Below, piece after piece: positions 20,725 through 37,840 of a DNA stretch of 40,639 nt. The stretch covers positions 1 to 40,639 of the forward strand of contig JAQTQH010000007.1 of NCBI GenBank assembly GCA_028712355.1, given 5' to 3'. The translations under genes and the position numbers were made by a program. The notes beneath the pieces are model-generated. The model saw nothing but the letters and a program-made list of their open reading frames with translations, did not search any database and was not told the DNA's origin. Within the stretch, counting starts at the first letter, position 1. The number at the start of each line of letters is the position of its first letter. This stretch comes from Dehalococcoidales bacterium. Its GTDB lineage: Bacteria; Chloroflexota; Dehalococcoidia; Dehalococcoidales; RBG-16-60-22.

Positions 20725-21051
20725 CTACAGCATTGCCGATTTGTTCTCCCCCAATCCGGCAGTATCGTTAACAGGAACAACAAAGGATATTCCGGCACCC
20801 GGTTTCTCAAGCTCTGCAGCTAAAACAATTTCTTTAAGTATCTCTGCGCTTCTGTCCGATTCACAGATAGTCAACAGTACTTCCTTTTGAGGTTCAATGA
20901 GAATCCCCATTATTTTCTGCTGCTCGTGTACGCTCGTGCCTCTCCCCATCAGTATTGTTCCCCCGGATGCCCCGGCTTTCATCGAAGCTTCCAGTATTAT
21001 GTCTCCCCACCCTTTGTTCACTATCGTAACAATAAGAACACATGCCATCAA
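20725..21051 (-). CDS. PII-like (nitrogen regulatory protein fold) protein
   Basis: 108 aa; AGASGGTILMGRGTS...GILIEPQKEVLLTICESDRSAEILKEI...GAGISFVVPV. Confidence 0.78.
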   Translation of the reverse strand: MMACVLIVTIVNKGWGDIILEASMKAGASGGTILMGRGTSVHEQQKIMGILIEPQKEVLLTICESDRSAEILKEIVLAAELEKPGAGISFVVPVNDTAGLGENKSAML

Positions 21052-21785
21052 TTTTCCCTCCTATAGTGAGTCCTAACTCGTACAAAAATGCCCAGCGCCA
21101 TGACCGACATGATGGGCGCGAGTGCTATTAAAGCGGCTAGACCAAAGCCGTATATTAGCGGATTTTGCGCATCATTAACCGAAGATAAGCCAATACCGAG
21201 ACTCAGTAAAAAGGTATTTGCTATTGGTCCGGTGGCGCATCCTCCCGCATCAAAGGCAATACCGATAAAATCTTTCTCGGTAAGCCACAGCATTACGATA
21301 GCAATCGCATAACCGGGAACTACTATGTACAATAGCGGAATAGTATAGATTACTCTCGCAATACCCAGGGCTACGATAAAAGCTACTCCGATGCAAATAG
21401 CGCAGAGAACCGTTATTTTGCGGATAGTGCCGGAAGAAGCTTTTTCTACCTGGCTGCACAGAACTCTGACCGCCGGTTCTCCCCAAGCTGTAAAAAACCC
21501 CAGTAAAAATCCCAGAGGTATCGCCATCCAAATGATACTGGAATTCCCCAGAGCTTGCCCGATGGCTTTCCCGAAAGGAAGAAACCCAGATTGTACGCCC
21601 TGCAAAAAAAGCAAAAGGCCAACGGATGATATTAAAATACCTTTGGACAGAGTAATAATATAACTTCTGAGCAACTTCAGATAAAAACCCTGGAGCACTG
21701 CGAAGATAGCCAGGAGAGGCAGCACGGCTTCTATTACGCCAAACGCCGTATATCCCAGATTATCAAAGATTGAAAATCCGTTCAT
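21048..21785 (-). CDS. DUF1538 family membrane protein (copy 2)
   Basis: GIAFDAGGCATGPIANTFLLSLGIGLSSV motif; ATGA overlaps with both neighbours. Confidence 0.85.
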   Translation of the reverse strand: MNGFSIFDNLGYTAFGVIEAVLPLLAIFAVLQGFYLKLLRSYIITLSKGILISSVGLLLFLQGVQSGFLPFGKAIGQALGNSSIIWMAIPLGFLLGFFTAWGEPAVRVLCSQVEKASSGTIRKITVLCAICIGVAFIVALGIARVIYTIPLLYIVVPGYAIAIVMLWLTEKDFIGIAFDAGGCATGPIANTFLLSLGIGLSSVNDAQNPLIYGFGLAALIALAPIMSVMALGIFVRVRTHYRREN

Positions 21786-22519
21786 CTTGTCAATATTCCC
21801 ATAATCAATACAGCGATAATCGGGCCTATGGAGCCCATGCCGAGTATCCCGAACCCATCAGATATAGCGGACCGGCCTGCTATCACAGAACTAAGCCCAA
21901 TGCCCAGAGCCAGTACTACCGGCGTCGTCAGCGCACCGGTGGTGACGCTACCGCTGTCAAAAGCCAGCGAAATATACCCCGGTGGGGTGAAGAATGAAAG
22001 GATAATAATGATAATATAACTGGCTGCCAGGATGTAAGCAATGTGAAATCCAAAGACAATACGCAACATTGCCATTGCAGCATAAATACCTAAACCTATA
22101 CCTATAATATAAACCAGGCTATCCCCGTTTATCATACCCTGTGATATCGTATCAGCCTGATGTGACAACACAATGACATCCGGTTCGGCAATGGTTGTCG
22201 CAAAACCAATCACAAAAGCAACCCCCATTATCACCCACAGGTTCCTGCGCTGCACCAATCCGGCTCCAACGTCTTTACCAGCCGGGAGAATCCCCACCTC
22301 AATACCAATTAAAAATAAAATCATGCCGGCAATCATCATGACAACACTGCCACAAAATTGGATAAAATTACTGGATGGTGCCTTGACGATAGCAAATTGC
22401 AGAAGGATGATGACCACAACCAGCGGAGCAATTGCTCTAATGACCTCAATCGTTGTATCTTTGAGCAACTTTCGCACGATTAACTCCCGGATTAAAATCA
22501 GTGACGTGGTATGCGGCAA
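21782..22519 (-). CDS. DUF1538 family membrane protein (copy 1)
   Basis: SLAFDSGSVTTGALTTPVVLALGIGLSSV motif; paralogous to the adjacent ORF. Confidence 0.85.
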   Translation of the reverse strand: MPHTTSLILIRELIVRKLLKDTTIEVIRAIAPLVVVIILLQFAIVKAPSSNFIQFCGSVVMMIAGMILFLIGIEVGILPAGKDVGAGLVQRRNLWVIMGVAFVIGFATTIAEPDVIVLSHQADTISQGMINGDSLVYIIGIGLGIYAAMAMLRIVFGFHIAYILAASYIIIIILSFFTPPGYISLAFDSGSVTTGALTTPVVLALGIGLSSVIAGRSAISDGFGILGMGSIGPIIAVLIMGILTR

Positions 22520-22744: not shown

Positions 22745-23017
22745 ATGAAGTATTGGAGAAAACCCCTCGACCAGGACCATCTAAAAACACAGCACTATCA
22801 GGTAGACCTGATTACTGATAGATGCAAAGGCTGCGGGCTGTGCATCGAGTTCTGCCCTCGCCACGTCCTGGCGGAGTCCGCCGAATTCAACCGCAAAGGC
22901 TACCATCCCATATATGCTGTTAATGATGATTGCCTGAACTGTGGACTGTGCGAGCTAATGTGCCCCGAATTCGCCATCCGCATTGTTCAACGGGAAGGAG
23001 CACCTGCCCGTGAGTAG
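22745..23017 (+). CDS. korD: 2-oxoacid:ferredoxin oxidoreductase delta subunit (2x[4Fe-4S] ferredoxin)
   Basis: CKGCGLCIEFCPR and CLNCGLCELMCPE; directly upstream of the alpha/beta/gamma subunits. Confidence 0.88.
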   Translation: MKYWRKPLDQDHLKTQHYQVDLITDRCKGCGLCIEFCPRHVLAESAEFNRKGYHPIYAVNDDCLNCGLCELMCPEFAIRIVQREGAPARE

Positions 23018-24161
23018 CCGCAAATCGCTCTCCGGCGATTTCTTTATCACCGGCGATGTCGCCTGCGCCGAGGGCGCCATCAGCGCGGGCTGCCGCTTCT
23101 TTGCCGGCTATCCCATTACCCCTGCTACCGAGATTGCCGAACGCATGTCCGAGCGCCAGCCTGAAATCGGCGGCACCTATATCCAGATGGAGGACGAAAT
23201 CGCCTCCATGAACGCCATACTGGGCGCGTCCTGGGCGGGTGTCAAAGCGATGACGGCAACTTCCGGTCCCGGCTTCAGCCTGATGATGGAGAACCTGGGG
23301 CTGGGTGTCATGCTGGAAACACCATGTGTGCTGGTGAACGTGCAACGGGCAGGGCCTTCCACCGGACTGCCCACGCTGGCCGGGCAGGGCGACATGATGC
23401 AGGCGCGCTGGGGCTCCCACGGACATTACAGCATCATCGCATTGTGCCCCGATTCGCCGCAGGAGATGTATCAACTCGCTATCAAAGCCTTCGACCTTTC
23501 CGAAAAGTACCGCACGCCGGTGCTTATCATGGCGGATGAGGTGGTAGGACATATGAGCGAAAAGGTAACTATCCCTCCTCCTGAAGAAATTAAAACCTTA
23601 CCGCGCCGCAAGCCTGCGGTGCCGCCGGAAAAGTACCTGCCCTACGTCCCGGATGCCGACCTGGTGCCGCCGATGGCGAACGCCGGTGAAGGCTACCATT
23701 TCCACGTTACCGGTCTGACCCACGATGAGCGCGGTTACCCGTTGATGACTGCCGAGGCGCAGGACAAGCTCATCCGGCGGCTGGTCAACAAGATAGACAA
23801 AAACCAGGACGATATTATTATGCTGAAAGAGGACTGGCTGGATGATGCCGAGGTAGTGGTCTGCTCTTACGGCATTTCGGCACGGATTGGCAAATTCGCC
23901 GTAGAGCGCGCCCGCGCTGAGGGCATTAAAGCCGGCATGCTGCGGCTCATCACTGCCTGGCCCTTCCCTGAAAATCGAATCCGGCAGCTTTCTAAAAAAG
24001 TAAAGGCGTTTATTGTACCCGAGATTAACTGCGGACAGATTGCTCTGGAAGTAGAGCGCTGTTCTTCAGGCAGAGCCAGTACCATCCTCGTGCCGCACAT
24101 GGGCGGCGGCGTGCACCAGCCGCATACTATTATTGAAGCCATCCGGAAGGCACTCAAATGA
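23010..24161 (+). CDS. korA: 2-oxoacid:ferredoxin oxidoreductase alpha subunit
   Basis: GDVACAEGAISAGCRFFAGYPITPATEIAERMSE; GTG start at 23010 overlapping the ferredoxin stop, with GGAAGGAG upstream. Confidence 0.92.
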   Translation: MSSRKSLSGDFFITGDVACAEGAISAGCRFFAGYPITPATEIAERMSERQPEIGGTYIQMEDEIASMNAILGASWAGVKAMTATSGPGFSLMMENLGLGVMLETPCVLVNVQRAGPSTGLPTLAGQGDMMQARWGSHGHYSIIALCPDSPQEMYQLAIKAFDLSEKYRTPVLIMADEVVGHMSEKVTIPPPEEIKTLPRRKPAVPPEKYLPYVPDADLVPPMANAGEGYHFHVTGLTHDERGYPLMTAEAQDKLIRRLVNKIDKNQDDIIMLKEDWLDDAEVVVCSYGISARIGKFAVERARAEGIKAGMLRLITAWPFPENRIRQLSKKVKAFIVPEINCGQIALEVERCSSGRASTILVPHMGGGVHQPHTIIEAIRKALK

Positions 24162-25042
24162 CGCAGGAATATTCAGCAGGAAGATATTACCCCGGGGAAT
24201 TGCTCCGCGAAGACCGGATGCCGCACATCTGGTGTCCCGGCTGCGGCATGGGCAGCATTCTGCATGGATTTCTGAACGGGCTGCACCAGTCCGGTCTGCC
24301 GCTGGACAAAGTAGCCATCGTTTCCGGCATTGGCTGTGCGGGTCGCGTTGCCGGTTATGTCAAATTAGACTCTTTCCATACCACGCACGGCCGGGCGATT
24401 CCCTTTGCCACCGGTCTCAAGCTGGCCAATCCGGAGTTGAAAGTGATCGTTTTCAGCGGCGATGGCGACCTGGTATCTATCGGTGGTAACCATTTCATCC
24501 ACGCCGCCCGTCGTAATATGGACCTGACGGTTATCCTGGTCAATAATTTCACCTATGGCATGACCGGCGGGCAATTCGGCCCGACGACTCCGCTGGACGC
24601 CCGCACAGCTACGTCACGCTACGGCAGTTACGAACCCACCTTCAACGTACCGAACCTTGCCGAAGCTAGCGGTGCTGTCTACATCGCCCGCTGGACGGCG
24701 CTGCACCTGCGCCAGATGGAGCAAAGCTTTACCGAGGCATTGCATAAAAAAGGATTCAGCCTGGTAGAGGTCATCAGCCCCTGCCCCACCCTCTACGGCA
24801 GGATGAACCGCCAGCCTAGGGGACTCGACCAGATGAAGTATTACCAGCAGAACAGTATTATTCAGCATGGAGCTGACACCAGAACCGTCGGCATCGAGTT
24901 GAATGGCAAGATTACCGTGGGTAAATTTATCGATATTGAACGGCCTGCTTACACTGATATTAAGACCAGAGTCTACGAGAAGGCATTTGCGCCCAAACCG
25001 GCGGCTCCGGCCAAGACCACCGCCGAGGCGAGCAGTAAATAG
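24158..25042 (+). CDS. korB: 2-oxoacid:ferredoxin oxidoreductase beta subunit (TPP binding)
   Basis: WCPGCGMGSILHGFLNGL; FSGDGDLVSIGGNHFIHAARRNMDLTVILVNNFTYGMTGGQFGPTTP. Confidence 0.93.
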   Translation: MTQEYSAGRYYPGELLREDRMPHIWCPGCGMGSILHGFLNGLHQSGLPLDKVAIVSGIGCAGRVAGYVKLDSFHTTHGRAIPFATGLKLANPELKVIVFSGDGDLVSIGGNHFIHAARRNMDLTVILVNNFTYGMTGGQFGPTTPLDARTATSRYGSYEPTFNVPNLAEASGAVYIARWTALHLRQMEQSFTEALHKKGFSLVEVISPCPTLYGRMNRQPRGLDQMKYYQQNSIIQHGADTRTVGIELNGKITVGKFIDIERPAYTDIKTRVYEKAFAPKPAAPAKTTAEASSK

Positions 25043-25053
25043 GAATCCGCTTA

Positions 25054-25608
25054 ATGAAACGAGAGGAAATCATACTCGGAGGATTCGGCGGGCAGGGCAT
25101 CATCCTTGCCGGTAGCATCGTGGGCAAGGCAGCGGCTATCTTTAACGGTCAAAACTCTACCCTCACCCAGGACTACGGCCCCGAGGCGAGAGGCGGTGCC
25201 TGCCGTGCCCAGGTCGTCGTCTCGGATAGCCCGGTGTCCTATCCTTATGTGGAAAATCCCTCGGTGCTGGTGGTAATGTCGCAGGAAGCGTATGAAAAGT
25301 ATGCGGCAGGTGCAAAGCAGGATGTTCCACTCTTGATTGACGAAGACCTCGTCAAACTAAAAAAGGATGAAAAGCATCCGGTCTTTCCTATTCCGGCAAC
25401 ACGGTTCGCCCGGGAACTGGGACGGGAGGCGGTCGCTAATATCGTGATGGTGGGATTCCTGGCTGCGATAAGCAGTATCGTGCCTGCCGAAGCCATGAAA
25501 AAATCAGTGCTGAGCTCGGTTCCCAAAGGCACCGAGGAACTGAACACTAAGGCATTCGAGCGCGGCTACAACTACGGCAAGGAGCAACTGGCGGCGGGGA
25601 AGCGGTAG
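25054..25608 (+). CDS. korC: 2-oxoacid:ferredoxin oxidoreductase gamma subunit
   Basis: LGGFGGQGIILAGSIVGKAA...TLTQDYGPEARGGACRAQVVVSD. Confidence 0.93.
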   Translation: MKREEIILGGFGGQGIILAGSIVGKAAAIFNGQNSTLTQDYGPEARGGACRAQVVVSDSPVSYPYVENPSVLVVMSQEAYEKYAAGAKQDVPLLIDEDLVKLKKDEKHPVFPIPATRFARELGREAVANIVMVGFLAAISSIVPAEAMKKSVLSSVPKGTEELNTKAFERGYNYGKEQLAAGKR

Positions 25609-25610
25609 AG

Positions 25611-28463
25611 ATGAGCAAAGGCGTGCTGGTCAAGGGGGGAGGCCGCGCCGGTGTTAAAGCAGCTCTGGAGCTGGCGGAACGCGGAGTCAAAGTTGCGCTG
25701 GTGGCGGAAGCTGGCGCCCTGCCGAACGGCCACGATAATTCCTACGAAGCGTTGCGCTTTACCCCTCTGCTCTTGCGAGCCGCGCACCATCCCAACATTA
25801 ATGTTATTACTAATGCCAGCCTGGAACGCCTGCACGGCGAAAAGGGCGATTTCAAAGTAAGAATCATCCAGCACCCGCGTTTTGTCGATGCGGCAGCCTG
25901 CGTTAGCTGCGGCAAATGTGAAATAGAATGTCCGGTTAACGTCGTGTCGCTCACCGGTTCAGATGAGAAACACAAGGCAATCCATCTCCCTCTGCTTGGA
26001 CTCAAATCGGTGCCGGCTGCTTATTGTATTGAAAAGAGCGGGGTTTCTCCCTGTGCCGCCGCCTGTCCCGCCGGAGTCAATTCGCACGGCTATGTCGCCC
26101 TTATCGCGCAGGGTAAGTTCAAAGAAGCTCTCGACCTGATTACCGAATCGGCTCCTTTCCCGCGCGTTCTGGGCAGAGTCTGCAACCGCCCCTGTGAAGC
26201 AAATTGCACCCGCGGAAAAATCGACCGTGCCATTGCCATCTGTGCTCTGAAACGCTTTGTCGCGGATAATAACTCGACAGAAGTCTCTTTAAAACGGACG
26301 CATGATAATCGAAAAGGCAGGGTGAAACCGGCGCAGCCCCGGGTAGCGATTATCGGTGCGGGCCCGGCGGGACTATCCGCCGCCCGCGATTTAGCCCGCA
26401 TGGGACATCACTGCACCGTCTTCGAAGCGCTGCCGATGCCCGGCGGCATGATAACCGTGGGCATGCCCCGCTTCCGCCTCCCCCGCGAGGTCCGCCAGGC
26501 GGATATCGAAGACATCGTGCGACTCGGCATTGAAATCAGGACTTCCACGCCTATCGGTAAAGACCTGACGATGGACGACCTGAAAAAGCAAGGGTACGAA
26601 GCTATTCTGATTGCCGTGGGCGCTCACAAGAACCAGAAGCTGGGCATTCCCGGAGAAGGTCTTTCCGGCGTGGTTGACGGCGTTTCCTTGCTGCGGGCTG
26701 TTAACCTTAAGCAGCCATTCACCATCGGCTCACGGGTAATTGCTATCGGCGGAGGTAACGTCGCCATCGATAGCGCCCGGGTGGCTTCGCGACTGGGGAC
26801 AAAAGAGGTCAGCATCTTCTACCGCCGCACCCGCGCGGAAATGCCCGCTAACGATGAAGAAGTTACCGAGGCAGAGCAGGAAGGCGTTAAGCTTGAATTT
26901 ATGGTCTCGCCGACGCGTATCATCGGGCAGGACGGCAAAGTCACCGGTGTGGCGTTTCATCGCATGCAGGTTACTGATGGCGAAAGCGAAGGACGCCGGC
27001 ATACCGTTCCGATTGAAGGCTCGGAGTTTACCGTCGAAGCGGATACGGTCATTGTCGCCGTGGGTCAGCGTCCTGACTTCTCTTTCCTGGAGGGCGACAC
27101 TACTTTAACCGAAGGAAAAAGGCACATTGTCGTCGACCAGTCCACAATGGCGACCAGAGTCCCCGGCATCTTTGCCGCCGGAGACGCCGCCTATGACTCC
27201 GGACCGATGATTAACGCTATCGGTATGGGGCGACGGGCAGCAATCTCTATCGATAAATATCTTCGCGGTGAACCGGTAGCAAAAGAACCAGTCCATGCCA
27301 GAGTGACGCCGGTTGAAGTAAACTTAAACAACATTTACATTCCATCCATCGAGCCGCAGGAAATGCCCTTCCTGCCCATGAAAGAACGGAGGGGCAACTT
27401 TGAAGAGGTCGAACTTGGCTTTACACCGGAAATGGCAATGCGGGAAGCCCAGCGCTGCCTGAACTGCAGCGGGTGCAGCCAGTGCCTGGAATGTGTGCGC
27501 ACCTGCGAGCTTGACGCCCTGGACCACAGCCAGACGGCACAGCGCTACGACTTTGAAGTAGCCGCGATTATTGCCGGTAAAGATACGGTAATTATCCATG
27601 ACAGCGAATTAATTACAACACGTCACGGCATTCATTTACTGAGTTCTTCTGATGCTGACTTTACAGAAGCAAGCTCAATCGCCGCGGAAATAACGGAAGA
27701 GCTTACGAAGCATGGCATAGAGTCTAAGCCTTTACTAAAAGAAATCCAGGCTCCTGCTATTGCCTCTCCAACCGGCAAGCCGCGTTTGGGCATCTTTGTC
27801 TGCGGCTGCGGCGGCAACATCAGCGATGTAGTATCAATCACGAAAGTGCTCGGTTACCTCCGCAATCTACCGGCTATTGCTTATGTCAGCGGTATTGCCT
27901 ATGCCTGTACCGATGAAGGCAGCGCCGACATCAAATACGCCGTGAAAAAGAATAATCTCAGCCATGCCGTTCTTGCCGCCTGCTCCTGCTGCAACTTCGA
28001 CCAGATTTGCTTCAGCTGCGCCGACCGCCGTATCCTTTGTAAAACGAAGCTGATGGAAGGCGATTTCAACAGCACTTATTATGAATTCATAAATATCAGG
28101 GAACACTGCGTCTGGGTGCACCGGAACAATCCGGAGGAAGCCACCGCCAAAGCCCTGAGTCTGATTCAGGCAGGAATCGCCCGCGCCGCTAACTGTCATA
28201 TTATGACGAATGGCCGAGCGGTCATTCCGGTTATCGCTGAAACAAAGTGCCGTGCTTGCGGCACCTGTATCACGGTTTGCCCCTTCGAGGCGATTGTCTT
28301 GAAAGAAAACCGCAACGGCTCTTCCGTTTCAAAGATTGATGAATCACTTTGCCGCGGCTGCGGTATCTGTGTGGCGCGCTGCCCGTCCGGTGCGCTCCAG
28401 CAGCTGGAGTTCAGTGATACCATGATTAATGCCTCGCTGGCGGCAATTTTGACTAAGAAATAA
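25611..28463 (+). CDS. 950-aa multidomain flavoprotein: HdrA-like and GltD/NfnB-like modules with several [4Fe-4S] domains
   Basis: Rossmann N-terminus, CVSCGKCEIECP, GltD-type CAAACPAGV...CNRPCEANCTRG, RVAIIGAGPAGLSAARDLARMG, IAIGGGNVAIDSAR, then FVCGCGGNI (HdrA N-domain) and C-terminal CRACGTCITVCP/CRGCGICVARCP. Confidence 0.9.
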   Translation: MSKGVLVKGGGRAGVKAALELAERGVKVALVAEAGALPNGHDNSYEALRFTPLLLRAAHHPNINVITNASLERLHGEKGDFKVRIIQHPRFVDAAACVSCGKCEIECPVNVVSLTGSDEKHKAIHLPLLGLKSVPAAYCIEKSGVSPCAAACPAGVNSHGYVALIAQGKFKEALDLITESAPFPRVLGRVCNRPCEANCTRGKIDRAIAICALKRFVADNNSTEVSLKRTHDNRKGRVKPAQPRVAIIGAGPAGLSAARDLARMGHHCTVFEALPMPGGMITVGMPRFRLPREVRQADIEDIVRLGIEIRTSTPIGKDLTMDDLKKQGYEAILIAVGAHKNQKLGIPGEGLSGVVDGVSLLRAVNLKQPFTIGSRVIAIGGGNVAIDSARVASRLGTKEVSIFYRRTRAEMPANDEEVTEAEQEGVKLEFMVSPTRIIGQDGKVTGVAFHRMQVTDGESEGRRHTVPIEGSEFTVEADTVIVAVGQRPDFSFLEGDTTLTEGKRHIVVDQSTMATRVPGIFAAGDAAYDSGPMINAIGMGRRAAISIDKYLRGEPVAKEPVHARVTPVEVNLNNIYIPSIEPQEMPFLPMKERRGNFEEVELGFTPEMAMREAQRCLNCSGCSQCLECVRTCELDALDHSQTAQRYDFEVAAIIAGKDTVIIHDSELITTRHGIHLLSSSDADFTEASSIAAEITEELTKHGIESKPLLKEIQAPAIASPTGKPRLGIFVCGCGGNISDVVSITKVLGYLRNLPAIAYVSGIAYACTDEGSADIKYAVKKNNLSHAVLAACSCCNFDQICFSCADRRILCKTKLMEGDFNSTYYEFINIREHCVWVHRNNPEEATAKALSLIQAGIARAANCHIMTNGRAVIPVIAETKCRACGTCITVCPFEAIVLKENRNGSSVSKIDESLCRGCGICVARCPSGALQQLEFSDTMINASLAAILTKK

Positions 28464-28467
28464 TGTC

Positions 28468-28932
28468 ATGGCTAAGAAGATAAGCAAATACACCAGCAGT
28501 GCCCCGCAGATAGTCGGCTTCGTATGCAACTGGAGCGCCTACAGCGGCGTGGAGATGGCGGGAGTTGAGAAGATAGAGTACCCGGCGAATATCAAGCTGG
28601 TCAGACTCCCCTGCCTGGGACGGCTGCACCTCGGTCATATCTTGAACTCGTTTGAACTGGGAGCGGGCGGAGTGGTGTTGCTGGGCTGTCCGCCGGACGA
28701 CTGCCACTACGAGTCCGGCACGGAAAAGGCAAAAGAGGTACTGGCGCAGGCAAAGGAGATAATCAACCTACTGGGTATTGACCCATTGCGCCTGGGATTC
28801 ATAGAAGTACCCATCGGCAGAGGCGATATTGTCGCCAGCCAGCTTACCGCCTTCGTTAAGCAAATTGAGGTTCTGGAAAGCCACCCGAAGCAAAAGGGAC
28901 ACGCTCCAGTTTTATCCGGAGGCAAGAAATAG
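28468..28932 (+). CDS. MvhD/FrhD-like hydrogenase iron-sulfur subunit family
   Basis: IVGFVCNWSAYSGVEMAGVEKIEYPANIKLVRLPCLGRL...GVVLLGCPPDDCHYESG. Confidence 0.9.
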   Translation: MAKKISKYTSSAPQIVGFVCNWSAYSGVEMAGVEKIEYPANIKLVRLPCLGRLHLGHILNSFELGAGGVVLLGCPPDDCHYESGTEKAKEVLAQAKEIINLLGIDPLRLGFIEVPIGRGDIVASQLTAFVKQIEVLESHPKQKGHAPVLSGGKK

Positions 28933-28934
28933 CT

Positions 28935-30068
28935 TTGGCTGATATCAAGCGCTTAATCCGCAACACCAGGGCATACGCCTGCCTCGATTGCGGCAAATGT
29001 ACCGCGGTCTGCCCGGTGGCGCGCTATAATCCGGATTTTTCGCCGCGCAAGCTGGTGGCTGGCGCCGTTTCCGGCCAGAAGCCGGACGGTCAACTCTGGG
29101 CCTGCCTCACCTGTTCCCTCTGCGAAGCACGGTGCCAGTCCGCTGTAGAATATGTGGAACTGATTAAAGAAATGCGTGAAGCGGCGCATGCTGATGGCGA
29201 GTCCGGGCAATGCACTCACGGCGGTGCGCTAGAAGCCCTGATGCACCTGATGACCTCGGATAATCTCAAGCAAAACCGACTCGGCTGGCTGGACAAAGAA
29301 TATAAAACAGCCGGCGAAGGCGAAGTTCTTTTCTTCACCGGATGTGCACCCTATTTCGATGTCATTTTTGCCGACCTGGGTGTTAAAACACTGGATACTG
29401 CGAAAGGTGCCATCAAGCTGCTTAACCAACTCGGTATCACACCTGCCGTGATGCCTGATGAGCGCTGCTGCGGTCACGACATGCTCTGGACCGGCGATAC
29501 CCGGAACTTTGTAAAGCTGGCAAAGCTCAATCTCGCAGAAATTACCAGGACCAAAGCGAAAAAGATAGTCACCGCGTGTCCCGAATGCTACCATACATTG
29601 AAAGTTGAATACCCGCGTTATGTCGGTGAAACGGGACTTGAGATCGTCCACATCTCCCAGCTTCTGTCGGATGCAGTCAGCAATGGCAAACTCAAGTTTC
29701 GTGAAATGAAGCGGAAAGTCACCTACCACGATCCGTGCCGGCTGGGCAGGTTTAGCGATATCTACGACGCGCCACGTTCGGTCATTGACGCCATTCCCGG
29801 ACTGCAGATGGTGGAGATGGCGCATAACCGCGCCGCTGCCCTCTGCTGCGGCACCCAGGCATGGATTAACTGCGGCGCGGTGAACAAGCAGATACAAACC
29901 AAGCGGCTGCAGGAAGCCGCCGCGACCGGCTCGGATATTATGTTAACATCATGCCCCAAGTGCCAGATTCACCTGACATGCGCTTTAAAAGATAGCAAAT
30001 CGAACGATAAAGCGCAGCTGCAAATCACCGATTTGACTGCGCTGGCGGCGGAGGCGGGAACAGAATAG
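28935..30068 (+). CDS. HdrC-HdrB fusion (heterodisulfide reductase-like; two CCG domains); TTG start
   Basis: CLDCGKCTAVCPV, CLTCSLCEARC, then ERCCGHDMLW...ACPECY and DPCRLGR...LCCGTQAWINC...SCPKCQ. Confidence 0.88.
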   Translation: MADIKRLIRNTRAYACLDCGKCTAVCPVARYNPDFSPRKLVAGAVSGQKPDGQLWACLTCSLCEARCQSAVEYVELIKEMREAAHADGESGQCTHGGALEALMHLMTSDNLKQNRLGWLDKEYKTAGEGEVLFFTGCAPYFDVIFADLGVKTLDTAKGAIKLLNQLGITPAVMPDERCCGHDMLWTGDTRNFVKLAKLNLAEITRTKAKKIVTACPECYHTLKVEYPRYVGETGLEIVHISQLLSDAVSNGKLKFREMKRKVTYHDPCRLGRFSDIYDAPRSVIDAIPGLQMVEMAHNRAAALCCGTQAWINCGAVNKQIQTKRLQEAAATGSDIMLTSCPKCQIHLTCALKDSKSNDKAQLQITDLTALAAEAGTE

Positions 30069-30077
30069 GAGGTCATT

Positions 30078-32513
30078 ATGAGTGCCGAAAATGTACGCAT
30101 CGGGGTATTTGTCTGCGAATGCGGCAAGAATATCGCCGGTTTCGTGGACTGTGACGAGGTAAAGAGCTACGCCGAGGGATTGGAAGACGTCGTCGTCGCC
30201 ATGAAGAACCGCTACACCTGCTCCGACCCCGGGCAGGCGGAAATTAAAAAGAAAATTAAAGAGCATAACCTGAATAGGATTGTAGTTGCTTCCTGCTCGC
30301 CGCGCCTGCACGAACCGACTTTCCGCGCCTGCATCGCCGAGGCGGGTCTCAATCAGTACCTGCTGGAAATGGCGAACATCCGCGAGCAGGTGAGCTGGGT
30401 GCACTCAACTGACCGCAGCGCCGCTACAACCAAGGCGAAAGACTTGGTCAAAATGGCGGTGTCACGGGCACGCCATCTGCAACCGCAGGAAGAAAAATCA
30501 ATTTCCATTACGGACGCCGTTCTGGTAATCGGCGGCGGCGTTGCCGGTATCCAGGCTTCATTAGATTTGGCGGACTCCGGGCACACCGTCTACCTGGTAG
30601 AAAAACAACCCAGCATCGGCGGCATCATGGCGATGCTGGACAAGACCTTTCCCACACAAGACTGCTCGATATGAATACTCGGGCCTAAGATGGCGGATGT
30701 CGGTCGACATCCCCGGATCAAACTGATGACCCTGAGCGAGGTCGAAAACGTTTCCGGCTATGTCGGCAACTTCAAGGTAAAAGTGCGCCGTCATGCACGT
30801 TATGTCAATGAAGCAGAATGCACCGCCTGCGGAGACTGTGCCACGGTCTGCCCCGTGCTTAAAGTAGATGAATACCAGGCTGGCATGGCGACGCGCAAAG
30901 GGATTTATATCCCCTTCCCCCAGGCGATTCCCGCCGCCTATGTCATTAACATGAAGGATTGCCTGGGCAATAATCCCATCGCCTGCAATAAATGCGTGGA
31001 AAAATGTGAAAAGAAGTGCATTAGCCTGGACATGAAGGACGAGATAGTCGAACTGAATGTTGGCTCTATCATCGTGGCAACCGGCATGGATGTATATGAC
31101 CCAACCGCCCTCGATGAATACGGCTATACTCGTTTCGCGAACGTGGTGACCAGCCTTGAGTTCGAGCGGCTCATCAGCGCCGGCGGCCCCACCGGTGGGC
31201 ATTTCGTCCGCCCCGGGGATGGTAAAGAGCCGAAACGCATCGGCTTCATCCAGTGCGTCGGCTCGCGCACGCAGAACCGGGGTAATCCCTATTGCAGCAA
31301 CATCTGCTGCATGAATACCATCAAAGACAGCCTGCTGCTCATGGAACATTACCCGGACACCGAAATCAATGTTTTCTACATTGATATCCGCGCCTTTGGC
31401 AAGGGTTTTGAAGACCTTTATAACCGCAGCAAGCAAATGGGCGTGAAGTACATCCGCGGCATTCCCGGGGAAATCACCGAGGATGCTAAAACAGGGAATT
31501 TACAACTCAAGGTAGAAAACACGACCACCGGAATAATTGAGGACTACGAACTCGACATGGTGGTACTTTCCATAGGACTGGAACCCCCAAAGGATGGCGA
31601 TAAACTGCGACACCTGCTTACTCTCTCCAAAACGAGCGACGGCTTCCTCGCCGAAAGACACCCCAAGCTGATGCCCGTCGATACCGCCACGCGGGGCATT
31701 TTCCTCGCCGGGTGCGCCGAAGCGCCCAAGGATATCAAGGACAGCGTGACCCAGGCGAGCGCGGCGGCGGCACGCGCGGAAATCATCCTCAAGGCGAACC
31801 AGATTAAACTCGATGCCGCCAAAGCAGTCGTCGACCCGAGCAAGTGCACCATGTGCGAGCTATGCGTCAAGGTCTGCCCCTACGGCGCCATCACCGCCAG
31901 CCGGGAAAAGAAGAAGCCCGCCGAGGTCATCGAAGCCATGTGCGCCGGATGCGGCTCCTGCGCCGCCGAGTGCGCTTTCGGGGCGATTTCTATCCGCCAC
32001 TTCGACGATGATGAATATCTGTCACAGATTGAATCGGCGCTGGCGGAAAACCCGCAGTATAAAATCCTTGCTTTCGCCTGTAACTGGTGCTCCTATGCGG
32101 CGAGCGACCTCACCGGCTCGTCCCGTTTGCAATACCCACCCAGTGTGCGCCTTATCAGAACGATGTGCAGCGCCCGCGTTAACGAAAAGTTCGTCCTGCA
32201 AGCTTTTAAATCGGGCGCGCCGATTGTCCTGGTCTCCGGCTGCCACTACGCCGACTGTCATTACAACGGCGCCAACCGCGCCACTCAGCGCCGCATCGAC
32301 CGTCTGTGGGACCGGTTGGAAAGGCTGGGTATCCGCCCGGAGCGGCTGCAACTGGAATGGATGAGCGCTGCCGAAGGACAGCGCTTTGCGAAGGTGATGG
32401 CGGAGCTTGAAGAAATGCGGTTGAAAGTCACTCCCGAAGAAATCGAGCAGACGAAGAAAACCATCGCCGAGCAGGAAAGCAAAAAGAAAAAACCGGCGGC
32501 TTCCGCCGCCTGA
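30078..32513 (+). CDS. hdrA: HdrA-MvhD fusion, predicted selenoprotein (Sec at codon 199, TGA 30672-30674); 811 aa if read through
   Basis: Upstream ORF ends ...FPTQDCSI, TGA, then in the same frame ILGPKMADVGRHPRIKLMTLSEVENVSGYVGNFKVKVRRH; frame continuous from 30078 to 32513. C-terminus LAFACNWCSYAASDL...SGCHYADCHYNGAN is MvhD-like. Confidence 0.88.
30672..30712 (+). promoter_or_regulatory. Putative bacterial SECIS element (TGA plus hairpin GGATGTC-GGTC-GACATCC)
   Basis: Perfect 7-bp stem (30695-30701/30706-30712), GGTC tetraloop, 27 nt between the TGA and the loop. Confidence 0.8.
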
Positions 32514-32792: not shown

Positions 32793-33194
32793 TTACTTCT
32801 TGGCTTCCACCAGCTCCAGCAGGACTTTGGACTCTTTAGGATGCAAAAAGGCGATACTGGTATTCTCCACGCCGCGCCTCGGTTCTAAATCAATGAGGGG
32901 GATATTCTTCTGCTTCAAATCGCCTAGGGCGGAGCGCAGGTCGGAGACTTCCAGTGCGATATGATGTAAGCCTTCGCCGCGCTTTTCGATAAACTTGGCA
33001 ATCGGCCCTTCCGGATCGGTCGATTCGAGCAGTTCGATTTTACTCTCTCCCACCGGGATAATGGCAGTCCGCACCTTCTGCTCTGCCAGGATTTCAATTT
33101 CCTGGAGCTTCAGTCCCAGCGACTCGGTGTACAGCTTGAGCATAGCGTCAATACTGTTGACGGCAATCCCGATGTGACTGACCTTGTTTATCAT
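32793..33194 (-). CDS. mce: Methylmalonyl-CoA epimerase
   Basis: VSHIGIAVNSIDAMLKLYTESLGLKLQEIE...GEGLHHIALEVSDL...FLHPKESKVLLELVE. Confidence 0.92.
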   Translation of the reverse strand: MINKVSHIGIAVNSIDAMLKLYTESLGLKLQEIEILAEQKVRTAIIPVGESKIELLESTDPEGPIAKFIEKRGEGLHHIALEVSDLRSALGDLKQKNIPLIDLEPRRGVENTSIAFLHPKESKVLLELVEAKK

Positions 33195-33598
33195 CAGTTC
33201 TCCTTCTTCACATTCGTATTGATATAATTAACGATTGTTTCCAGCGGTGTCCCGGGACCGAAGACCTCGGCAATCCCTTTTTCTTTCAAAACAGGAACAT
33301 CCTGCTTGGGCACAATACCTCCGCCGATGACCAGAACATCCTTAGCGCCCATTTCCCGGAGAATACTCACCGTGCGGGGAAAAAGCGCCATGTGCGCCCC
33401 GGATAAGCAGTCCAATCCTACCACGTCGACATCCTCCTGGATAGCTGCCTCGGCGATTTGCTCCGGTGTCAGGCGCAGCCCCAGGTAGATGACTTCCATG
33501 CCGGCGTCCCGCAAGCCGCGCGCCACAACTTTGATGCCCCGGTCATGCCCGTCCAGTCCGGGTTTAGCAAGCAACACGCGTATCTTTTTCTCGCTCAT
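33194..33598 (-). CDS. Methylmalonyl-CoA mutase small (B12-binding) subunit
   Basis: [33 protein letters not shown] (DxHxxG); start at ATG 33598 (MSEKKIRV). Confidence 0.93.
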
Positions 33599-33611
33599 CT
33601 TTATGGCTCCT

Positions 33612-35225
33612 TTAAAGTATACTCGGCTCGCGGTATTCGCCGAAGACTTCCCGCAGCGCACCGCTGATTTCTCCGACGGTGGCGTAAGCCTTGACGGCCT
33701 CGACAAACACCGGAATAATATTTTCACTGCCCGCAGCAACTTCTTTCACCTTGCCAAGTGCGTCTCTAACTTTTTGATTGTCCCGCTCCCGGCGCAGCTT
33801 TTGCAGCCGTGACTTCTGCTTTTCCTCGATTTCTGCGCCGATGCACAGAATCTCCGGTTCCGGCTCGTTCTCTACCTTGAAATCATTGACCCCTACAATA
33901 ACCTGCTCTTTGCTGTCTACCGCTTTCTGGTAATCGTAAGAAGCCCGGGCAATTTCCCGCTGGATATAGCCCTGTTCGATGGCTTTAAGCGCCCCGCCCA
34001 GTTTATCGATTTCCGCAATGTATTTCATCCCGTCGCTCTCAATTTGATTGGTCAGCGCTTCGACAAAATAGGAGCCGCCCAGCGGGTCGACGGTATCCGC
34101 AACGCCGCTCTCGTGCGCCAGGATTTGCTGTGTGCGCAGCGCCACTCTCACCGCCTGCTCCGTAGGTAAAGCAAGCGCTTCATCGAAAGAGTTGGTATGC
34201 AGAGACTGGCAACCACCCAGCACCGCCGCCAGCGCCTGCAAGGTCACTCTCACCACGTTATTAAGAGGCTGCTGGGCAGTCAGGGTAAAACCATCGGTCT
34301 GGACGTGATAACGCAACATCAAGGAGCGGGGATTTTTGGCATTGAAACGCTCTTTCATTATCTGCGCCCACATGCGGCGCAGGGCGCGGTACTTGGCGAC
34401 TTCTTCAAGAACATTGGTATAAGCCGCGAAAAAGAAGGAGAATTGCGGCGCGAACGCATCAACGTCCATGCCTCTATCCAGCATCGCCTGGACGTAAGCG
34501 ATGCCGTTCGCTATGGTAAAACCGGCTTCCTGTGCGGCGGTTGCCCCCGCTTCACGCATGTGATAGCCGCTGATGCTGATGGAGTTCCACTTCGGCATCG
34601 TTTTAGAACAAAAGGAGCAGAGGTCGGTGACCAGTCGCATGGACGGCGCCGGGCCGAGGAAATAGGTGTTGCGCGCGATGTATTCCTTGAGGATGTCATT
34701 CTGCACAGTGCCATTCAGCTTGGCAACGTCGGCGCCCTGTTTTTCGGCGGCGGCGATATACATGGCGAGGAGAATCGCCGCGGTAGCGTTGATAGTCATC
34801 GAGGTGCTTACTTCGCCCAGAGGAATGCCTTCCCAGAGTTGCTCCATGTCCTGCAGGGAATCGATGGCGACGCCACACCTCCCCACCTCACCCGCCGCTA
34901 AGGGATGGTCCGAATCATAGCCTTCCTGGGTGGGCAGGTGGAATGCCACGCTGAAACCGGTCTGGCCTGCCTTATAGAGGTACTTGTAGCGCTTGTTGGT
35001 CTCGTCCACAGTGGCGAACCCGGCATACTGACGCATCGTCCAGAGCCGACCGCGGTAGCCGGTGGGCATGATACCACGGGTGTACGGATATTCGCCGGGG
35101 AGACCGAGTTCGGCCTCTTTAATTCCCGCCGTATCCGCAGCAGTATAAACCCGCTTTATGACGGTGCCGTCTACAGTGGTGCGAAACTCTTTCTTACGTT
35201 CAGGCATCTCACCGGGCTTTGGCAT
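33612..35225 (-). CDS. Methylmalonyl-CoA mutase large (catalytic) subunit
   Basis: [84 protein letters not shown]. Confidence 0.95.
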
Positions 35226-36100: not shown

Positions 36101-37840
36101 ATGTTCCGTATTCGCCGGGTCTATGACAGCTTAACTCCGGCTAACAAAGAAGCCGTAACCCAGGTTCAAAGCATCCTTAAAACTCAATTCCCTTCTCTCC
36201 CGGAAAAAGAAATAGCCGAATTGCCCCGGAAATTATTGAATCCCCTGAAGTACCGCTTCCGCGCCATACTTTTTGTCGCCGAAGATAGAGAAAAGGTACA
36301 GGGCTTAGCCCTGCTCTCGCATGAGCCCATTCTCAATTTCTGCTACCTTGATTATCTTGCCTCGGCGAAGAGAATCAGCGGGCGCGGTGTAGGCGGAGCC
36401 CTGTATACCAGAGTCAGAGAGGAAGCGCTTCTGCTCAAGGCTACCGGAATTTTCTTTGAATGTCTCCCCGACGCCCCCAAATTATCGCGCGACCCCAAAA
36501 TCAGAAGGCAGAATGCGGCGCGCCTGCGTTTCTATGAAAAATTCGGCGCCCGGCCCGTTATCAACACAGCCTACGAAACACCCCTCACGCCGGGCAGCGA
36601 TAATCCTCCTTACCTTATGTACGATGGGCTGGACCAGGACGTCACATTAGCGCTCGATTCAACCCGCAATATTGTCAGAGCAATCCTGGAAAGAAAATAT
36701 GCCAAGTTATGCCCGCAAGACTATGTCGAACTGGTCATAGCTTCCTTTAAAAATGACCCTGTGCTCTTAAGACCGCCTAAATATGTAAAGATTCAACTCG
36801 TGACAAAGATTAAATACCATACCCCCAAGGATGAACGCATCATACTACTGGTGAACGAAAAACACGCCATTCACCACGTCCAGGAAGTCGGCTACGTGGA
36901 AGCACCGGTGAGAATCGACTCAATATTAAAGGAACTGGATACTACCGACCTGTTCCGGAGAGTAAAAACTCATCATTTCGGAGAGTTACGTATTACATCC
37001 GTTCACGATAAGGAGTTTGTCAGCTATCTGAAGAAGGTATGCACCGGGCTAGAATCAGGGAAATCGGTATATCCCTATGTATTCCCGATTCGAAACGCCA
37101 CACGTCCACCAAAGGCTTTGCCGGTTCGGGCAGGATATTATTGTATTGATACTTTTACTCCTTTAAACCGCAATGCCTACCTGGCTGCTAGGGGATCAGT
37201 CGATTGTGCCCTCACCGGCGCCAAGAGAATTCTGGAAGGCGACCACCTGGCTTATGCGCTGGTGAGGCCTCCCGGGCATCATGCGGAGAGGCGCTCTTTC
37301 GGCGGTTTTTGTTACTTTAATTCGGCGGCAATAGCGGCACAATACCTCAGCGCCTATGGCAAAATCGGCTTCCTGGATATTGATTATCACCATGGCAATG
37401 GACAGCAAGAAATATTCTACCAACGTGCCGATGTATTGACGGTATCAATCCACGGGCAACCGAGCTTCACCTATCCGTATTTCAGCGGTTTCACGACCGA
37501 AAAAGGAGCCGGTGAAGGGGAAGATTATAACATCAATTTCCCCCTGCCGGAAAATATCGATGGCGAAAGATACCGCCATGTCCTGTCAAAAGCATTACGA
37601 CAAATAACCAGATTCAAGCCTGATTTCCTGATAGTAGCCCTTGGTTTTGATACTGCCGAAGGAGACCCCACCGGCAGCTGGATACTCCAGGCTAAAGATT
37701 TCGAAACCAATGGCAGATTGATTGGACTGCTTCGGCTGCCTACCATGGTTGTTCAAGAGGGGGGGTATAACACCAGTTCCCTCGGTACCAATGCGCTTCA
37801 TTTCTTCAAAGGACTGTGGTCCGGCGCCTATTCAGCCTAA
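36101..37840 (+). CDS. Fusion of N-terminal GNAT acetyltransferase-like domain and C-terminal histone deacetylase/acetylpolyamine amidohydrolase-like domain
   Basis: GNAT: LDYLASAKRISGRGVGGALYTRVREEA...RFYEKFGARP. HDAC: RPPGHHAERRSFGGFCYFNSAAIAA, GFLDIDYHHGNGQQEIFY, LIVALGFDTAEGDPTG. Confidence 0.88.
   Translation: MFRIRRVYDSLTPANKEAVTQVQSILKTQFPSLPEKEIAELPRKLLNPLKYRFRAILFVAEDREKVQGLALLSHEPILNFCYLDYLASAKRISGRGVGGALYTRVREEALLLKATGIFFECLPDAPKLSRDPKIRRQNAARLRFYEKFGARPVINTAYETPLTPGSDNPPYLMYDGLDQDVTLALDSTRNIVRAILERKYAKLCPQDYVELVIASFKNDPVLLRPPKYVKIQLVTKIKYHTPKDERIILLVNEKHAIHHVQEVGYVEAPVRIDSILKELDTTDLFRRVKTHHFGELRITSVHDKEFVSYLKKVCTGLESGKSVYPYVFPIRNATRPPKALPVRAGYYCIDTFTPLNRNAYLAARGSVDCALTGAKRILEGDHLAYALVRPPGHHAERRSFGGFCYFNSAAIAAQYLSAYGKIGFLDIDYHHGNGQQEIFYQRADVLTVSIHGQPSFTYPYFSGFTTEKGAGEGEDYNINFPLPENIDGERYRHVLSKALRQITRFKPDFLIVALGFDTAEGDPTGSWILQAKDFETNGRLIGLLRLPTMVVQEGGYNTSSLGTNALHFFKGLWSGAYSA

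Follow-up and report, generated by a model that had tools for sequence, protein, structure and literature searches.

The stretch of DNA analyzed here (the window, 40,639 nt) is a contig of a Dehalococcoidales genome, available as a fragmented draft of 1.53 Mb in 80 contigs. An uninterrupted frame of 950 codons at 25611-28463 (+) encodes P0001, a protein in which parts of HdrA surround a GltD/NfnB-like module. From the open frame, the domain map and homologs in 24 other genomes, P0001 is read here as a GltD-containing, apparently flavin-stripped remnant of a double HdrA, encoded between the genes of a 2-oxoacid oxidoreductase (Kor) and those of an HdrA-type bifurcation module.

Domain architecture of P0001

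Domains were mapped, in P0001 residue numbering, with hidden Markov models (HMMs) built in this analysis, alongside searches with Pfam, NCBIfam and PDB sequences. All of them lie on the plus strand, in the order R1, first ferredoxin half, GltD/NfnB, second ferredoxin half, remnant, HdrA N-domain and C-terminal ferredoxin. R1 (amino acids [aa] 1-85; 25611-25865) is, by HMM (77 bits) and alignment, a degenerate form of the Rossmann half of HdrA that belongs to flavin adenine dinucleotide (FAD), and it lacks the PTxDCSxC motif that holds Cys197. The ferredoxin inserted in HdrA follows and is cut in two by the GltD module. Its first half, matched by HMM from aa 86 onward (25866-26024), contains CVSCGKCEIEC (aa 97-107) with the invariant C97, C100, C103 and C107, and its second half (27456-27530) contains CSQCLECVRTC (aa 622-632) with the invariant C622, C625, C628 and C632, besides C616 and C619. 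In a phmmer search against the PDB, aa 3-150 corresponded to residues 144-298 of HdrA (9sfi_A).

The GltD/NfnB-like module between the two cluster motifs (aa 140-553; 26028-27269) was recognized by NCBIfam PRK12771, which covers aa 142-656 (E=1e-154, 515.8 bits), by a local HMM (620 bits) and by Foldseek matches to NfnB, StnC and NfnABC. It carries the FAD motif GAGPAG (aa 249), the nucleotide motif GGGNVA (aa 380) and YRRTR (aa 404), and as in NfnB, the fold combines FAD and NAD(P) motifs with N-terminal cluster cysteines. By analogy, YRRTR suggests NADPH as the coenzyme; the motif is lost in some relatives. Three members (L114, L127 and L128) have SWTVPEEL in place of the YRR nucleotide motif and an N-domain without C810, and a change of coenzyme is possible there. 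The C-terminal tail of the PRK12771-type module was detected at aa 586-625 (27366-27485; 70 bits).

Behind the second ferredoxin half, a remnant of 80 residues (27531-27770) occupies, judged by its position in the domain order, the place of the first HdrA R2, the second Rossmann half, which measures about 240 aa in full-length relatives. The HdrA N-domain comes next (aa 722-864; 27774-28202; 160 bits). NCBIfam NF040770 (HdrA) matched P0001 with E=5e-68, and its best stretch, aa 725-864, equals HdrA positions 1-130; with phmmer, aa 723-860 corresponded to residues 3-130 of HdrA in 5odc_A. The protein closes with the C-terminal 2[4Fe-4S] ferredoxin of HdrA (aa 866-947; 28206-28451; C880-C890 and C914-C924; 78 bits, Pfam Fer4_7). 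The NCBIfam and phmmer matches thus place both the HdrA-like N-terminus and the HdrA N-domain found near the C-terminus far beyond chance. An earlier note, made from the letters of this DNA alone, had described an HdrA-like Rossmann/4Fe-4S N-terminus, a C-terminal block related to the HdrA N-domain and a complete GltD/NfnB-like unit between them, possibly inserted into HdrA. The domain scan that it proposed bears out each of these assignments and locates the insertion inside the inserted ferredoxin; the split of this ferredoxin, the C-terminal ferredoxin and an in-frame TGA in the nearby HdrA had been overlooked.

Homologs and origin of the architecture

Family members were sought in 41 relatives, in 400 genomes from the phylum and in 393 from the class; with that of the window, 25 family loci were examined. 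A metagenome-assembled genome (MAG) of the same genus, JAQTVW01, encodes a full-length homolog of identical architecture with 71-72% identity to P0001, so that the search for the same domain order in other genomes, suggested in the earlier note, found one such case. Family relatives occur in 23 further genomes, with 52-57% identity in three other MAGs. A scan of a genome collection, which reached close relatives only, returned four true homologs, in MAGs named Dehalococcoidales, Dehalococcoidia and Chloroflexi. The family was present in about 5% of the sampled genomes of the class, and one locus (L113) came from a genome outside the class.

The relatives can be arranged in five forms; the order of the first three is unrooted by these data. 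Form (i) is a single HdrA with nested GltD, N-R1-Fd(a)-GltD-Fd(b)-R2-Fd2 (L029, L030 and L036, and L035, which is cut at its end). Form (ii) is the same without the N-domain (L026-L028 and L115), and in L115 this N-less GltD-HdrA gene is followed by a separate N-R1-R2-Fd2 gene. Form (iii) joins the two halves in a tandem double HdrA of 1479-1498 aa with GltD in the first HdrA (L025, L031 and L032). Such a tandem GltD-HdrA-HdrA gene, truncated by the contig end but with both R2 present, is also found in the host genome of P0001 on another contig (C29; L033, 12014-14953), so that one genome holds the tandem and the stripped form together. Form (iv), of 1,120-1,224 aa, has no intact R2, and many of its members keep degenerate R1/R2 relics between the N-domain and the last ferredoxin. 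Form (v) consists of P0001 and its sister-genus homolog, in which the linker at this place has shrunk to 1-3 aa, compared with 156-197 aa in all 21 other measurable members. In three members, a relic of the R2 C-terminus within this linker scored 21.6-30.9 bits, whereas none of 460 shuffles exceeded 2.5.

Phylogeny of the N-domain agrees with this series. The reduced family and the second-copy N-domains formed one clade (support 99/97), and neither the N-domains of HdrA2 nor those at the N-terminus of single GltD-HdrAs fell within it. The reduced family was monophyletic in both the N-domain tree (99/90) and the GltD tree (96/95), and P0001 and its sister stood beside the 1,184-aa forms L022 and L023, with support of 100/99 for a set of five that includes L024. 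Since full tandem versions exist, several homologs keep relics in the linker and the tree groups the N-domain as described, we assign the displaced N-domain to the second HdrA copy. On sequence grounds, P0001 is therefore best explained as a tandem HdrA-HdrA fusion in reduced form, with GltD/NfnB nested in the inserted ferredoxin of the first copy, and as having arisen by gene fusion and subsequent domain loss, not by circular permutation. Cys197 and the flavin modules of HdrA were lost by domain deletion; the iron-sulfur relays and the FAD/NAD(P)H site of GltD are what is left.

Apparent loss of the HdrA flavin site and new cysteines

Bifurcation by HdrA relies on its FAD together with K409 and E356 (PMC12054007). 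No R2 match was obtained in P0001 with the domain HMM, and P0001 consequently lacks equivalents of E356 and K409. Moreover, the glycine motif of R1 is not conserved in the alignment of the family. The HdrA flavin site of P0001 thus appears to be gone, and its description as a flavoprotein in the earlier note holds for the GltD FAD.

According to the crystal structure, HdrA bifurcation also depends on dimer formation, the N-domain cluster of one HdrA being completed by Cys197 from its partner (PMC9012536). The Cys197 motif was absent from all 24 alignable family members, whereas a cysteine at this position is kept in R1 of single HdrAs, of N-less forms and of the first HdrA in tandem forms. The tandem relatives are complementary in this respect: their first HdrA has Cys197 but no N-domain, and their second has an N-domain but no Cys197. 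In the reduced family, the canonical N-domain cysteines C731, C733, C766 and C791 are accompanied by the family-specific cluster CCNFDQICFSC (C793, C794, C800 and C803; 27987-28019, +), of which C793, C794 and C800 were found in 25/25 members versus 0/39 other HdrA N-domains. The altered cysteine spacing already remarked on in the earlier note is therefore real and conserved. We infer that the new cysteines would either make the N-domain cluster self-sufficient or bind a further cluster.

The gene set around P0001

P0001 belongs to an apparent operon KorD-KorA-KorB-KorC-P0001-FlpD-HdrCB-HdrA2 on the plus strand, with gaps of -4 to 11 nt if the uncertain start of KorA is excepted. Upstream lie a KorD-like ferredoxin (22745-23017; translation and conserved order), KorA, the 2-oxoacid:acceptor oxidoreductase alpha subunit (22983-24161; NF006412 above cut-off, true start uncertain), KorB (24158-25042; PRK09628/PorB_KorB) and KorC, the gamma subunit (25054-25608; PRK08537/POR), so that alpha, beta, gamma and delta are all represented. 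Only 2 nt separate KorC from P0001. Downstream lie FlpD/MvhD (28468-28932; PF02662), a TfrB-like HdrC-HdrB fusion (28935-30068; PF02754) and a complete HdrA2-FlpD (30078-32513). Among named families, HdrCB is closest to TfrB (PRK06259), and both of its CCG (noncubane cluster) motifs are complete (C137-CC178/179-C215xxC218 and C268-CC304/305-C340xxC343). No NfnA-like gene was found among the scanned operon proteins, and no TfrA was seen in the gene set. The stand-alone FlpD reads CNWS where the FlpD fused to HdrA2 reads CNWC, and one possible [2Fe-2S] ligand may be missing from it.

HdrA2 scored 1186 bits with NF040770 (curated cut-off, 1100), and its E363 and K416 align with E356 and K409 of 5odc. 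Its frame contains a TGA at 30672-30674, exactly at residue 199, the position of Cys197 in the solved HdrA. Eleven relatives have Cys at this site, and the window and eight other loci show a split of this kind. Because of this position, the Cys-containing relatives and the presence of tRNA-Sec and SelB on one contig of the host genome, the TGA is likely to be read as selenocysteine (Sec). A scan of the window at the Rfam gathering thresholds returned tRNAs only; no search aimed at a selenocysteine insertion sequence (SECIS) was made. Such switching between Cys and apparent Sec at a cluster-ligand site means that gene callers will split these genes into two open reading frames (ORFs).

The same order, KorABC, P0001-like gene, FlpD, HdrCB and HdrA2, is complete in 19 loci, all of which also have KorD except L120 and L128, both near contig ends. 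Four more loci (L024, L130, L132 and L133) are cut by contig ends yet consistent with it.

Proposed role of P0001

We propose, with a probability of roughly 0.6, that P0001 is a reduced tandem-HdrA fusion product that acts as an NAD(P)H-linked, flavin-stripped pseudo-HdrA and wires Kor to the bifurcating HdrA2-HdrCB. NAD(P)H would exchange hydride with the GltD FAD, and single electrons would travel via the HdrA-derived iron-sulfur domains to and from KorDABC and HdrA2-FlpD. KorDABC would form the low-potential end. The gene set has a single HdrA-type bifurcating FAD, that of HdrA2-FlpD, which would be the bifurcation site and connect to HdrCB as a disulfide-type high-potential end. In this way the reaction of a 2-oxoacid oxidoreductase, whether it runs as reductive carboxylation or as oxidation of the 2-oxoacid, would be coupled reversibly to the NAD(P)H pool and to a reaction of the thiol/disulfide kind, with P0001 perhaps in place of one protomer of an HdrA dimer. 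A partnership with HdrA2 is supported by the tight operon, the 19 complete loci and the conservation of E363 and K416 in HdrA2. A more specific version of this proposal, which we hold only tentatively, is an asymmetric heterodimer of flavin-stripped P0001 and the complete Sec/Cys-HdrA2, in which the N-domain cluster or clusters of P0001 would be held by the new cysteines or by Sec/Cys197 of HdrA2. One complex would then couple Kor, NAD(P)H and disulfide, and Kor could be driven directly, without free ferredoxin.

Several parts of this arrangement have published counterparts. Tandem HdrAs have been described, as have HdrA ferredoxins that harbor a GltD/NfnB unit, in ANME-1 and Bathyarchaeota (PMC9012536, PMC12054007). 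HdrA9/10/11 of ANME-1 (PMC9012536), the type III HdrA of PMC12054007, likewise has a GltD/NfnB unit of about 500 aa in its inserted ferredoxin. However, all published type III proteins keep a thioredoxin-reductase FAD domain with E356/K409, and P0001 lacks R2 and Cys197 and carries a second-HdrA N-domain near its C-terminus; moreover, the published cases are archaeal and the P0001 family is from Chloroflexota. Type II tandem HdrAs, HdrA3 and HdrA4 (PMC12054007, PMC9012536) and the Moorella HdrA of MetFV-HdrABC-MvhD are likewise two fused HdrAs, and the 1,490-aa relatives of P0001 share with type II the complementary presence of N-domain and Cys197. In contrast to type II, the first HdrA here also bears GltD, and P0001 has lost both flavin modules. 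Of the two thioredoxin-reductase domains that mark type II, neither is complete in P0001; both are present in L025, L031 and L032. By ancestry, the second-HdrA domains fused behind the first, as indicated by the N-domain clade and the relics, link P0001 to this type.

In StnABC, a separate bifurcating module receives electrons of NADPH from the GltD module of StnC, which does not itself bifurcate (PMC10482914). StnC and NfnA of NfnABC were the best structural and PDB-sequence matches of P0001 and, like it, are large multi-cluster proteins with an NfnB-like GltD module for NADPH. K214 of P0001 aligned without gaps to K170 of StnC, a position at which much of the wider family has His. StnC is the closest functional analogy, with the difference that Stn has NuoG-like wiring domains and a HydBC-like partner, and P0001 has HdrA-derived wiring and HdrA2 as its likely partner. 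In tubeworm symbionts and Thioflavicoccus, korABCD/tfrAB genes are interspersed with flxABCD-hdrABC, and direct electron delivery to 2-oxoglutarate oxidoreductase (OGOR) has been proposed (PMC6315080). That cluster also joins Kor genes with a TfrB-like protein and an Hdr module; unlike it, the present gene set contains no separate NAD(P)H dehydrogenase gene, a role that P0001 would fill. In the open-access literature, where absence is no proof of novelty, we found neither the combination of GltD-in-HdrA with a tandem HdrA, nor a flavin-stripped derivative or a loss of Cys197 with new N-domain cysteines, nor an account of the Kor-P0001-FlpD-HdrCB-HdrA2 gene set of Chloroflexota.

Four other explanations were weighed. 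The strongest of them, which we still consider rather unlikely, sees P0001 as no more than the acceptor subunit through which Kor reduces NAD(P)+, as a 2-oxoacid:NAD(P)+ oxidoreductase; the Hdr genes would form a separate unit transcribed behind it. Its position 2 nt after KorC fits this notion, as does L116, in which KorDABC, the P0001 homolog and an aminotransferase occur with no HdrCB-HdrA2. Phenylglyoxylate dehydrogenase, with its flavin-containing NAD-linked acceptor subunits, provides a precedent. However, a mere acceptor subunit leaves unexplained why the HdrA N-domain, the split inserted ferredoxin and the C-terminal ferredoxin are kept and why FlpD-HdrCB-HdrA2 lies directly downstream in 19 loci. 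It is improbable that P0001, like NfnB, uses its GltD FAD to bifurcate by itself, the HdrA-derived ferredoxins being the two branches. NfnB chains are among its closest solved GltD relatives, the near-flavin arginine is kept (R289, aligned with R239 of StnC) and a second bifurcation site has been suggested for the archaeal HdrA-NfnB insertions (PMC9012536). On the other hand, K214 matches K170 of StnC, whose GltD FAD is reported to be non-bifurcating, the operon has no NfnA partner gene, and a gene nearby encodes a complete HdrA2 that has the bifurcation residues. A circular permutation or relocation within a single HdrA, its own N-domain having moved to before the last ferredoxin, was raised in the earlier note and is compatible with the bare domain order of P0001 alone; the tandem proteins, the relics of the second flavin domain and the placement of its N-domain among second-copy N-domains contradict it and make it very improbable. 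An assembly or sequencing chimera, the further caveat of that note, has nothing more in its favor than the draft state of the genome and is ruled out, with next to no probability left, by the full-length homolog of 71% identity in JAQTVW01, an independent MAG with the same architecture, and the homologs of 52-57% in three other MAGs.

To return to the proposed wiring role in a reduced tandem HdrA, several observations weigh against it. The AlphaFold model of P0001 is weak outside the GltD core, with a predicted local distance difference test score (pLDDT) of 69 and a predicted template modeling score (pTM) of 0.48, and the GltD cluster region, the cysteine loop at 794-809 and the linkers are modeled poorly; among the Foldseek matches listed for it, only GltD-type proteins (NfnB/StnC/NfnABC) appear, so that the model adds nothing on the HdrA-derived parts. 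Within aa 641-720, the presumed site of the first R2, the best score in the family was 10.7 bits against a shuffle maximum of 8.5, and homology is not significant. Finally, the association with HdrA2 is not universal, since L116 and L117, from two genomes of one family, have a homolog without HdrCB-HdrA2. L116 keeps KorDABC, with the aminotransferase after the P0001 homolog; in L117 (10232-18802) Kor is absent, and a PPDK-N protein, FlpD and proteins with glutamate-synthase domains are encoded close by. These loci point to a family of general NAD(P)H adaptors for which partnership with HdrA2 is common, not universal, and L117 may represent a different use of the same adaptor.

Other genes in the window

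Directly downstream of the gene set, on the minus strand (32793-35225), are the large and small subunits of methylmalonyl-CoA mutase and a candidate glyoxalase-fold epimerase. This trio has the same place in the sister-genus locus L021 and was not found in the other loci. The region 20725-22519 (-) holds two adjacent DUF1538 genes with about 33% mutual identity and, behind them, a 108-aa ORF that has no match in Pfam. A protein of the histone-deacetylase family at 36101-37840 (+) has an N-terminal extension of about 265 aa, also without a Pfam match.

Implications for the family

The P0001 family offers a natural experiment on the rule that ties Cys197 to the N-domain, since Cys197 is gone from an entire family whose N-domain has acquired three invariant cysteines. 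Its intermediates show how a bifurcating flavoprotein can be stripped of its flavin and yet persist as iron-sulfur wiring on an NAD(P)H module. For the uncultured Chloroflexota that carry it, the gene set would link a 2-oxoacid oxidoreductase to a bifurcation module of the heterodisulfide-reductase type and may thereby couple carbon metabolism to electron bifurcation.

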